NCBI RefSeq assembly: GCF_022539405.1
Contig: NZ_CP054394.1
Location: forward strand, 1,614,501-1,678,500
Source: Natranaerofaba carboxydovora
GTDB taxonomy: Bacteria; Bacillota; Natranaerobiia; Natranaerobiales; Natranaerofabaceae
Direction: 5' to 3'
Length of the DNA: 64,000 nucleotides
Below, piece by piece: positions 10,846 to 38,700 of the stretch. The stretch's first letter is position 1; the number at the start of each line of letters is the position of its first letter. The notes under the pieces were generated by a model that was not told where the DNA came from, searched no databases, and saw only the letters and a program-made list of their open reading frames with translations. A program made the translations under genes and the position numbers.

Positions 10846-11018
10846 TCTTACCTGAGAGAGTTACACCTTCGGTCTTCCCTACAAACTGGAAACTCTCCAG
10901 AGCTGCGTCTTTCGACGGTCCTTTTACCTGCAAGTTTCACAGTATAGAAGCTATTACTCTATACCGTTTGCTCCTTCGGTGCCCTCTGTTAGGGTCTCTC
11001 CCGCCGAGTTCATCCGCC
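10840..11018 (-). promoter_or_regulatory. Tandem glycine riboswitch
   Basis: Two glycine aptamers in series, read on the minus strand. The first has CGGGAGAGACC, then GCACCGAAGGAGCAAA, then GGTAAAAGGACCG. The second has CTGGAGAGT, then GACCGAAGGTGTAACTC, then CAGGTAAGAAGGACAG. The repeated GGAGAG, ACCGAAGG and GGTAA(A/G)AAGGAC-type words are the family hallmarks. It precedes gcvT and is followed by a terminator, so glycine should turn the cleavage operon on. Confidence 0.94.
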
Positions 11019-11081: not shown

Positions 11082-11115
11082 TTATAAATATACTTCTTTT
11101 GTAAAAAGCTTAATA

Positions 11116-11340
11116 TTGATTCTGGTGCAAAAAGTCATATGAACAAGGTTTTGTTTTTAATTGCAATATATCTTGATGAGATAGCAGGAGAAATAAGGTC
11201 TAATGACAGGAAGTCATTAGCTAATTGAACTCAGGAGGAGTTCTTAAATTAGGAAACCTTATTTAGACTGCTATCGAATCCTAGATGTATCAATTAAAAA
11301 CACTATACTATTGTGAATAGACTTTTTGCACCAGAATCAA
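11116..11340. mobile_element. MITE-like element with terminal inverted repeats
   Basis: A 225-bp element bounded by inverted repeats: TTGATTCTGGTGCAAAAAGT at the left and its complement at the right. AATA directly flanks both ends, a possible 4-bp target duplication, although the surroundings are AT-rich. It has no coding capacity. The interior (11180-11275) folds into a regular three-way junction. Single ends of the family occur at 2117, 22483, 38540 and, degenerate, 51531. It lies between the gcv promoter and cysK. The transposase that would move it is not in the window. Confidence 0.75.
11180..11275. ncRNA. Candidate structured RNA: three-way junction with two AGGA-loop hairpins
   Basis: The outer stem is GATAGCAG (11180-11187) plus AAATAAGGT (11191-11199), pairing with ACCTTATTT (11256-11264) plus CTGCTATC (11268-11275). 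Hairpin 1 is CTAATGAC-AGGAA-GTCATTAG (11200-11220). Hairpin 2 is 11221-11252: CTAATT and GAACTC pair with GAGTTC and AATTAG around the loop AGGAG. The three helices abut, leaving only a GAA joint at 11253-11255. The transcribed strand is unknown; on the minus strand the loops read UUCCU and CUCCU. This is an inference from the fold alone. Confidence 0.5.
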
Positions 11341-11361
11341 AATATTAAAGTTAATTTCACT

Positions 11362-12294
11362 CTAATCATCGAAGTCAAACAAAGTAGTAGAAAGATATCT
11401 CTCTCCGGTGTCCGGAAGTATAACTAATATACATTTTCCTTCATTTTCTTTTCTATTAGCTAGTTCTATCCCAGCATATAAGGCAGCACCTGAAGAGGTC
11501 CCAGCAAGTATGCCTTCATTTCGGACTAGTTCTCTTGCAGTCTCCATGGCACTTTCATCTGAAACCTGGATTATTTCGTCAATCAGTTCCTTATCAAAAA
11601 CATCCGGTACAAAACCAGCACCTATTCCCTGTATCTTATGTGGACCAGGCTCTTTACCCGAAAGCACTGCAGAAGCTTCAGGTTCAACACCAACTAGTTT
11701 GATATTTGGGTTTTCTTCTTTTAAAACTCTTCCAGCACCTATTATAGTTCCCCCTGTACCAATTCCAGAAACAAAAAAATCTATCTCCCCGCCTGTGGAA
11801 TTTAAAATTTCTTTTGCCGTTGTTTTAGCATGTACTTTTGGGTTAGCTTCGTTTTCAAACTGCTGAGGGATAATAGAGTTAGAGTATTTTTTATTTAACT
11901 CTACAGCTTTATTAACAGCTCCTTTCATCCCTTCATTACCTGGTGTTAACATAAGCTCTGCTCCAAAAGCTTTAAGCAAATTCCTTCTTTCAAGACTCAT
12001 TGAGTCAGGCATAGTAAGTATAAGCTTGTATCCTTTTGCAGCAGCTACCATTGCAAGCCCGATACCTGTATTTCCACTAGTTGGTTCTATAATTACAGTT
12101 TCTTTATCTATTTTGCCTTCTTTTTCAAAAACTTCAATCATACCAAGTGATATCCTATCTTTAACACTACCACAGGGGTTGAAACTTTCTACTTTTCCAT
12201 AAATAGTAGCATGTGAATCATTGATCCCACTAAGTTCAACAATAGGAGTGTTACCTATTAACTCTAAAATATTAGAGTAAATTTTATCGTGCAT
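11362..12294 (-). CDS. cysK: Cysteine synthase (O-acetylserine sulfhydrylase)
   Basis: PLP enzyme making cysteine from O-acetylserine and sulfide. The 310-aa protein has the PLP lysine K45 in [11 protein letters not shown], the substrate loop [11 protein letters not shown] and the phosphate-binding GIGTGGTI. The ATG at 12294 follows GGGGAGGGAAATT; an in-frame start at 12330 has no such support. It lies 16 nt after aroK, likely in the same transcript as the pilus operon's tail. The cysteine may feed the Fe-S and thiolation enzymes nearby, which is inference. Confidence 0.95.
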
Positions 12295-14920: not shown

Positions 14921-15873
14921 TAATGCCACCACCTTAATGACAAGCCAACCGCTACCGCAGCATTTTTCCCGCTGTAATACTCATCTGACATCTCATATTG
15001 ATATATTTTTTCTAAAGGTTCTACTACCTTTGTCGTTGTATGTAGTTTACTTTGAAATAAATCTATCAATCCTTTTATTCCACAACTTGCCCCAGTAAAA
15101 AGCACTTTATAATCTTTTTTTATTTCGCTTTTTTGGGAGCGAGCAAAGTTTATAGATATTTCAATTTCTTTTATCAGTTTCTCTGTAAGTTTAGCTAGTT
15201 CAGCATTTGTAACTTTAAAAAAATCACATTCACCTATAGATATATTTCTTGAATACAAATAATTTTCACCTAAAGATATAATCAGTGCAGTATTAGTATC
15301 ATCCATGAATAAAATCAACCTCAGCTCTGTTTCATCTTTTGGAAGCAAGTTATTATATTTAACTAATCTAAATACAGAAAAAATATCCACCTCAAGAGAA
15401 TTTAAACGAAACCCTTTATCCTTTAAAAAGCTATAATATTCATTACATTTTTCTTTTTTTGCAGCAACTAACAAAATTTTTTGCTTGCCCGCCTCAACAT
15501 TATCAGTTCCAAGTTTGTAAAAGTCATATATTACATCATCAAAGGGTATAATCAACTGATCCCTGGCTTCATAGTTGACTGCCAAAGGCAGTTCTTTTTC
15601 AGGCATATTTGGGAGGTCAAACTGCCTTATAATAACATCTGTACTTTTTAAAGCCATATTGAAGTACTTATCAGTTAATTTTTCTCTAGCCATAATTTTC
15701 TTTAAGTTCATAAGGTTATTTTCTTTATCCTGTTCTTCTAACTCTATATCTGAGAACTTATTTAATACTAAACCATTCTTACCTCTTTTTAACTGGACTA
15801 TTTTGTAGCTATTATCATTTATATCTAACCCAAGCGGAGACCTAACAGCAAGCTTCTTTTTTAACTTTTTTAT
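14920..15873 (-). CDS. pilM: Type IV pilus assembly protein PilM
   Basis: Actin-like cytoplasmic ATPase-fold protein that binds PilN. It has LGLDINDNSYKIVQL (phosphate 1), QFDLPNMPEKEL, and VLFTGASCGIKGLIDLF near the C-terminus. The start is uncertain. GGAGGG (15880-15885) is followed by CTTATAATAAAAAAG with no ATG, GTG or TTG. The family-like N-terminus would begin at ATA 15873, giving KKLKKKLAVRSPLGLDI. A longer frame begins at ATG 15936 inside the upstream gene but has a weak SD. Confidence 0.8.
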   Translation of the reverse strand: MKKLKKKLAVRSPLGLDINDNSYKIVQLKRGKNGLVLNKFSDIELEEQDKENNLMNLKKIMAREKLTDKYFNMALKSTDVIIRQFDLPNMPEKELPLAVNYEARDQLIIPFDDVIYDFYKLGTDNVEAGKQKILLVAAKKEKCNEYYSFLKDKGFRLNSLEVDIFSVFRLVKYNNLLPKDETELRLILFMDDTNTALIISLGENYLYSRNISIGECDFFKVTNAELAKLTEKLIKEIEISINFARSQKSEIKKDYKVLFTGASCGIKGLIDLFQSKLHTTTKVVEPLEKIYQYEMSDEYYSGKNAAVAVGLSLRWWH

Positions 15874-15889
15874 TATAAGCCCTCCATTC

Positions 15890-16417
15890 TCACTTTTTAT
15901 CAGCTTCAAAAAAAGAAGTCGGCATTTTAACCTCATACTCTTTTTCCATATTATATCTAGCTCTATAGTAATACCCCGTAGAGTTAATAAAAACTCTAAC
16001 CGATAATCCTAAATCATCCTCCTCTTCTATTTCACCTTCTATTTCATCATCTAGCTCCTCTTCTGCCTCCTCGTCATCCTTTTTCTCATACTCATTTGTA
16101 GAGTTTGAATCAGACTCTGGGTCAGATACTTTATTAATTATTTCTAGCTCCAAAATCGAAGCCTCAAAATAGCCACCATTTAATTCTTTTGTTATCTCAT
16201 CATTTAGATCCATCTCACCATTAACAAACATATATATAGCGAATTCATTACCAGCTTTTGCTATATAATATCCCTTCTTATCATCCTCCACGGTTCCTGC
16301 CACTACTCTATCATTCAGAGAAATATTTAAAGAATGAATACTGATAATAAATACAACCGACATCACAAATAAAACATAGATTAAAATGCTACCTCTATTA
16401 GGCAATATCTTTTTCAT
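15890..16417 (-). CDS. Membrane-anchored pilus-associated protein, PilX-like
   Basis: A 175-aa protein with one N-terminal membrane segment (about 10-32, ILIYVLFVMSVVFIISIHSL). It has a soluble domain and a very acidic insert (about 115-140, rich in Asp and Glu). Position between the response regulator and pilM, and the N-terminal NRGSILIYVLF pattern, suit a PilX-type minor component. The family assignment is by context and is weak. The acidic stretch fits salt adaptation. Confidence 0.6.
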   Translation of the reverse strand: MKKILPNRGSILIYVLFVMSVVFIISIHSLNISLNDRVVAGTVEDDKKGYYIAKAGNEFAIYMFVNGEMDLNDEITKELNGGYFEASILELEIINKVSDPESDSNSTNEYEKKDDEEAEEELDDEIEGEIEEEDDLGLSVRVFINSTGYYYRARYNMEKEYEVKMPTSFFEADKK

Positions 16418-22482: not shown

Positions 22483-22526
22483 TTGATTCTGGTGCAAAAA
22501 GTCATATTAACAATGTTTTTTTAAAT
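22483..22526 (+). repeat. Solo terminal-repeat fragment (TTGATTCTGG family)
   Basis: Begins TTGATTCTGGTGCAAAAAGT and continues with ATATTAACAATGTTTT, like the left end of the 11116-11340 element. It is truncated at the 3' end of aroE. The rest of the pilB-aroE gap (22396-22482) shows only the SD of pilB and AT-rich sequence. Confidence 0.65.
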
Positions 22527-38539: not shown

Positions 38540-38560
38540 GACTTTTTGCAGTAGAATCAA
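38540..38560 (-). repeat. Solo terminal-repeat fragment (TTGATTCTGG family), diverged
   Basis: GACTTTTTGCAGTAGAATCA matches the right end of the 11116-11340 element with a few changes. It lies between mltG and repeat B, with no partner end. Confidence 0.5.
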
Positions 38561-38616: not shown

Positions 38617-38700
38617 CACCTGCCTAGCTACCATAAGTGGAGCTTTTAATTTGCGAGGTTTTTAGCAAATTCTTGCGACACGTTGGTAGCTAGGCAGGTG
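38617..38700. repeat. Variable-arm/conserved-core element, copy B
   Basis: Arms CACCTGCCTAGCTACC (38617-38632) and its perfect complement (38685-38700). The core at 38633-38684 has ATAAGTGGAGC, AATTTGC, GCAAATT and TTGCGACACGTT, matching copies A and C though the arms differ completely. On the minus strand the stem is followed by TTTTTAATAG, so this copy could also stop transcription between DUF1292 and mltG. Confidence 0.78.

Follow-up and report, generated by a model that had tools for sequence, protein, structure and literature searches.

A three-way-junction RNA of possible CsrA-binding type carried by MITE-like elements in salt-loving anaerobic Bacillota

Comparative analysis of a repeat from Natranaerofaba carboxydovora shows that a predicted 113-nt three-way-junction RNA, folded on the strand that carries GGA in its loops, has been preserved through compensatory changes in two classes of halophilic anaerobic Bacillota. 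A new, widespread structured RNA family carried by MITE-like elements is well supported, with respect both to the RNA family and to its mobility. Because the loops equal the CsrB repeat, lie at a distance that CsrA can bridge and occur in genomes nearly all of which encode csrA, we favor the reading, to which we give an even chance, that the element is a mobile, dispersed RNA module of the CsrA-binding type, whose transcription, binding and effect we infer from sequence. Short repeats in bacteria are commonly regarded as inert, whereas here the interior of the repeat is a conserved RNA with two regulator-type loops, maintained over class-level distance while its ends change.

The window, i.e. 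the whole stretch of 64,000 nucleotides analyzed, corresponds to 1614501-1678500 of a 3,264,732-bp single-contig genome; the features of the element within it are collected in Table 1.

Table 1. Features of the element and its RNA core, in window positions
Feature	Position	Strand	Basis and remarks
Whole MITE-like element	11118..11338	+ (GGA-loop strand)	about 221 bp, lengthwise imperfect palindrome; terminal repeats, end-to-end copy alignment
Left terminal inverted repeat GATTCTGGTGCAAAAAGTC	11118..11136	+	19 bp, perfect
Right terminal inverted repeat, same 19 bp as left	11320..11338	-	perfect
Possible decayed target duplication AATATT	11112..11117	.	partner 11341-11346, register shifted by two bases
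Structured RNA core, 113 nt (region of models R1-R3)	11175..11287	+	covariation; 129.9 bits with R1
Conserved GA opposite GA 11276-11277 in basal stem (tandem G.A step)	11178..11179	+	37/41 distinct family sequences
Junction stem, 5' strand GAAATAAGGT	11190..11199	+	pairs with 11256-11265; fold, covariation
Hairpin 1, CTAATGAC-AGGAA-GTCATTAG, C-G loop closure	11200..11220	+	GGA 11209-11211; fold, loop tallies
Hairpin 2, loop C-AGGAG-G	11221..11252	+	GGA 11234-11236, 25 nt from the first; fold, loop tallies
Junction stem, 3' strand ACCTTATTTA	11256..11265	+	fold, covariation
3' strands of lower and basal stems	11268..11280	+	CTGCT/AGCAG 11183-11187; ATC/GAT 11175-11177; covariation

Fold, compensatory change and strand

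The three-way junction that the initial annotation placed at 11180-11275 is real and slightly larger, extending over 11175-11287. On the + strand the core has a fold energy of -43.6 kcal/mol, compared with -22.7 (sd 2.7) for 200 shuffles, none of which was as good (z -7.7); the fold of the opposite (-) strand has a z of -8.0. The outer stem is GAAATAAGGT/ACCTTATTT, hairpins 1 and 2 directly abut, and GAA (11253-11255) alone is unpaired between the stems, in agreement with the near-absence of unpaired junction bases described initially. The loop description C-AGGA(A/G)-G holds for this copy, with its AGGAA and AGGAG loops, but not for the family, in which the fifth base is free and mostly U, such that C-AGGAN-G is the appropriate form.

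Further copies with compensatory changes, the main check proposed for the fold, were found in this and many other genomes. Among 39 copies from this genome, 11 pairs carry double changes (shuffled mean 4.1), amounting to 42 double-change cells versus 10.3 after shuffling, and slid controls, in which one stem side was moved by 1-3 columns, were all far lower. Once copies from Natranaerobius thermophilus, a member of the same order, are included, double changes affect 23 of 38 pairs (159 cells versus 39), and over seven genomes there are 288 double-change cells versus 96, with a covariation score of 0.481 compared with 0.197 for shuffled and at most 0.109 for slid controls.

The stems have been recoded, that of hairpin 1 from CTAATGAC/GTCATTAG to CGAACCAC/GTGGTGAG and that of hairpin 2 from GAACTC/GAGTTC to GGGCC/GGCCC, while the loops stay C-A-G-G-A-N-G, with N free. 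GGA is retained in loops 1 and 2, respectively, in 36 and 41 of 45 copies from this genome, in 7 and 7 of 8 from N. thermophilus, in 6 and 6 of 6 from genome G149, in 8 and 8 of 8 from Frackibacter, in 15 and 18 of 18 from Halanaerobium MA284, and in 0 and 3 of 3 from G341. Loop 1 has CGA or UGA in place of GGA in G341, several Halanaerobium genomes and part of G081, and reads GCCGA in some copies from this genome. All 41 distinct sequences have their two GGA motifs 25-27 nt apart; in 14 of the 41 a second tandem G.A step replaces two Watson-Crick pairs of hairpin 1. Family loops are mostly AGGAN pentaloops, with hexaloops in some N. thermophilus copies.

The terminal repeats differ between genomes, with an end of the YRCAAAAAG type in most, GGCTCTTTTATACTCCG... 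in N. thermophilus, AATAAAAGCTATAAAATTGAG in some Halanaerobium genomes and yet another in G405, giving at least three different shells overall. The loops and core persist while the terminal repeats change, and thus the RNA core is more conserved than the ends that move the element. Within one copy, the same variants (GG/AC, TATGG, GGAGC) recur in both terminal repeats, and covariation between element ends is evident at columns 7-231 (GC 22, AU 7) and 10-230 (GC 23, CG 7), as if the arms had corrected each other or different transposases had selected matched ends. Since the ends covary between arms though they are DNA sites, some of the pair changes may stem from DNA arm-to-arm correction.

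With respect to strand, moderate evidence, i.e. an excess of G-U over A-C and the tandem G.A steps, makes the GGA strand appear to be the folded one. On the GGA strand, G-U cells outnumber A-C cells by 65 to 33 in this genome and by 134 to 70 in the pooled set; counted as inferred events among the copies of this genome, the figures are 45 versus 24, against an expectation of 51% from the spectrum at unpaired sites (p about 0.02). From established RNA structure, only the GGA-carrying strand would have stable tandem G.A steps. This evidence separates the two strands; it does not separate RNA from single-stranded DNA.

The element and its copies in this genome

By form, the element is a MITE, in line with its initial description as MITE-like. 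In addition to the perfect 19-bp inverted ends, it matches itself in reverse complement at 68-72% identity by BLAST, BLASTN finds at least 40 copies in the genome (identity 79-93%), and about 200 terminal-repeat-like sites (104 + 99) are present compared with 3 (1 + 2) for a reversed control pattern. The covariance model recovers about 45 clear core copies plus fragments. The 221 bp contain no ORF of at least 80 aa and no transposase ORF. Several copies have exact 6-7 bp putative target duplications (AACTTT, AATAGTT, ATTATTT, TTCTTTT), which in most copies have decayed. We take the element to be a probable non-autonomous DNA transposon that carries the conserved structured RNA as cargo. In the loci examined around copies, the stretches between terminal repeats contained only unrelated genes and no autonomous partner; a transposase-like ORF near a similar repeat in another genome (G016, L089) was judged not to be linked to the repeat, which points away from the ORF.

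Many of the genomic copies are truncated. Several derivatives that run from end to end over about 50-150 bp have no junction, those with intact ends including L042, L046, L048, L051, L053, L058 and L060 (G000), and are either internal deletions that arose after insertion or separately mobile forms. The window also contains three solitary terminal-repeat remnants of this family, each near a coding region (2119-2137, 22485-22503 and 38540-38558), two being perfect and one having 2 mismatches.

On one side, the element in the window is flanked by a cysteine-synthase-like gene on the minus strand, whose 3' end faces it (the stop is at 11362), and on the other by a promoter-like site of the glycine-riboswitch/gcvT operon (11081-11052, minus strand, 11/12 consensus bases). 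The left end of the element lies about 35 bp upstream of this site, and the glycine riboswitch itself (10906-11013, minus strand) is upstream of the gcvT operon; no promoter match was seen within the element. Copies in this genome are often located immediately after a stop codon, and 27 lie between genes that both read on the opposite strand versus 8 between genes on the copy's own strand. Most copies are thus antisense to the upstream gene, and read-through would mostly yield the UCCU strand. The orientation bias, strong here, is absent in Halanaerobium, and for this reason we do not use orientation as general functional evidence.

Distribution and relation to known RNAs

BLASTN searches of relatives gave no copy outside this genome and missed those in N. 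thermophilus; the resulting impression of a genome-specific repeat was overturned by covariance-model matches in N. thermophilus, where model R1 recovered 9-11 copies, with both chromosome and plasmid represented. Model R2, built on this genome and N. thermophilus, identified 7 carriers among 398 genomes spread over the phylum, and model R3, built on seven genomes, identified 21 carriers among 59 Halanaerobium-class genomes, representing 14 of 30 genera, with a maximum of at least 64 copies scored in one genome. An exact-pattern search of genome contigs had matches in two genomes alone, Halanaerobium sp. MA284 and Ca. Frackibacter WG13, and the same search of viral contigs gave none.

One core copy (L158) resides on the 17-kb N. 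thermophilus plasmid NC_010715.1 at about 15868-15980, with a 100% match to the plasmid, and is a possible route between hosts. In G149, the element occurs inside an Rhs-type cassette array (L179, L184, L194) and has been duplicated along with the cassettes; many of the copies in this genome fall within 1943000-1982000, and those clustered copies, having been duplicated with Rhs cassettes, are not independent. In Ca. Frackibacter, a purine riboswitch match (L180, 1728-1906, minus strand) is present beside a copy and partly overlaps a sub-threshold guanidine-I riboswitch match.

We found no literature on this element. Rfam searches at gathering and permissive thresholds returned only the neighboring glycine riboswitch and rRNAs, with matches to the core at chance level, and the suggestion that Rfam might hold a motif with paired GGA or UCCU loops led to no family matching the core. 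A match to the 'drum' model at one locus (L197; 16.8 bits, E 0.33, cut-off 43 bits) was judged to be chance.

The closest architecture is that of the TwoAYGGAY RNA (RF01731), which occurs in Clostridia, has two GGA-loop hairpins and a tandem-GA step, and is a predicted, not proven, CsrA sponge (PMC4333381). It shares with the present element the two GGA-loop hairpins on an outer stem as well as the tandem-GA step, but its own loops are AYGGAY hexaloops, whereas those of the element are mostly AGGAN; the present element sits in a multi-copy unit with inverted ends, dispersal having been examined for the present element alone. Next closest is the reverse strand of Bacillaceae-1 (RF01690), which has two predicted CsrA-type loops and likewise occurs in Bacillota (PMC4333381). 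Both Rfam models fail on the element, which we therefore file under neither: at E<10 the TwoAYGGAY model matched neither the core in the window nor L183 or L197, and at E<1 it matched none of six loci, and the Bacillaceae-1 model gave no match on either strand. To our knowledge, Bacillaceae-1 has no mobile context.

With the CsrB/CsrC/RsmX-Y-Z RNAs (clan CL00106) the element has in common the motif of the CsrB repeat in its loops and the presumed ligand, and, if our reading is right, it would work like a Csr/Rsm-type RNA; the best CsrB score was, however, 6.1 bits versus a cut-off of 71. In Gammaproteobacteria, those RNAs come from one or two dedicated sRNA genes and have many loops, whereas the present element has two loops per copy, many dispersed copies and no promoter seen. 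Bacterial MITEs such as Correia, RUP and ERIC-like elements are short and non-coding, with inverted repeats, short target duplications, many intergenic copies and foldable RNA. The present element has these features in common with them, its target duplications being putative, but differs in that its internal RNA is kept by compensatory change across genera and different terminal repeats.

CsrA as candidate partner and competing readings

CsrA can bridge sites separated by 10-63 nt, and the repeat of CsrB is CAGGA(U/A/C)G (PMC7652899). The C-AGGAN-G loop of the element equals this repeat, the base after GGA being free in both, and paired GGA hairpin loops at a bridgeable distance are present in most copies, with loop 1 failing in some lineages. 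Characterized strong CsrA ligands have ANGGAN loops (RUACARGGAUGU being the SELEX optimum), and the usual element loop is shorter than these by one base. Two csrA genes are present in this genome, and one of the encoded proteins keeps MLVL and HRKE, the stretches with which CsrA contacts RNA. csrA is present in all seven of the first carriers and in 22 of the 23 carriers examined, a set that joins N. thermophilus and the present genome to the 21 carriers from the class, the exception being the draft G405, in which it was not found. Within the Halanaerobium class, csrA occurs in 20 of 21 carriers versus 21 of 38 non-carriers (Fisher p 0.001, with kinship and genome quality ignored); among genomes with completeness of 90% or more and contamination of 5% or less the association has p 0.01, with kinship ignored. 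The initial proposal that twin GGA loops suit CsrA-type proteins is thus strengthened by the identity of the loops to the CsrB repeat and by the presence of csrA twice here and in nearly all carrier genomes, and CsrA is the best candidate partner of the RNA family.

If a copy is transcribed, one CsrA dimer would dock on the two C-AGGAN-G loops, which the junction would hold 25-27 nt apart. Copies in untranslated regions could then act locally on the transcript that carries them, and transcribed copies would together make up a CsrA decoy distributed over the genome, comparable to CsrB/RsmZ in scattered form. Through CsrA binding, either the element or its host would have cause to retain the fold while the shell drifts. 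The broader proposal, that one CsrA-type module has moved between MITE shells to give dozens of copies in at least 14 Halanaerobium-class genera and in Natranaerobiales, forming a distributed mobile CsrA sponge, is more tentative and in our estimate falls somewhat short of an even chance. Were CsrA bound, the element would show that jumping copies can titrate or locally recruit a global RNA-binding regulator. Outside Gammaproteobacteria, where Csr-type RNAs are predictions only (PMC4333381), it would provide a further candidate. The covariance model is a ready new Rfam candidate.

An unlikely alternative, though one to be weighed seriously, is that the RNA is conserved for a partner other than CsrA, either as a structured barrier in read-through transcripts (RNase block or 3' end stabilizer) or as a ligand of another RNA-binding protein via A-N-G-A-N loops. 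Constraint on both fold and strand fits this possibility, as do the frequent location of copies right behind stop codons in this genome and the replacement of the first loop G in some lineages, with G-A and the closing G near-fixed across the family (columns 38, 39 and 41: 40/41, 41/41 and 41/41). The retention of GGA by loop 2 in nearly all sequences, with a free next base as in the CsrB repeat, and the enrichment of csrA among carriers instead favor CsrA.

We regard it as improbable that the hairpins are folded single-stranded DNA or a cruciform recognized by a transposase or host factor in transposition. The entire element is palindromic, one folded DNA strand would also be expected to give the G.T over A.C asymmetry, and such a role would naturally explain conservation within a mobile element; yet defined inverted repeats with short putative target duplications are what ordinary cut-and-paste ends would show, the genome contains derivatives that lack the junction, and the core is retained while the terminal repeats, the necessary place of transposase binding, are swapped.

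More doubtful still is an active UCCU strand that pairs with Shine-Dalgarno sequences or mimics the anti-Shine-Dalgarno sequence. No positive evidence emerged for the initial idea that the UCCU loops are an anti-Shine-Dalgarno signal, and the G-U/A-C asymmetry, the tandem G.A steps and the lack of orientation bias in Halanaerobium count against it, although UCCU is the strand that transcription from the upstream gene would produce for most copies here. A functionless palindrome, its symmetry due to arm-to-arm correction (template switching) and its copies sharing only ancestry, is very improbable and largely refuted, since such correction, for which the covarying ends provide a precedent, would leave the unpaired loops, the tandem G.A step and the junction GAA unprotected, would give G-U and A-C in equal numbers, and is at odds with loops kept across recoded stems and different shells.

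Other repeats were noted in the course of the analysis. A different short element of about 120 bp with related ends GATTCTGCTGCAGAAA occurs in another genome of the phylum (G029; L080, L088). In the window, a second repeat at about 38618-38700, ACACCTGCCTAGCTACC...GGTAGCTAGGCAGGTG, and similar CACCTGCCT...AGGC pieces beside two copies of the element (L003, L020) suggest a second dispersed repeat family.
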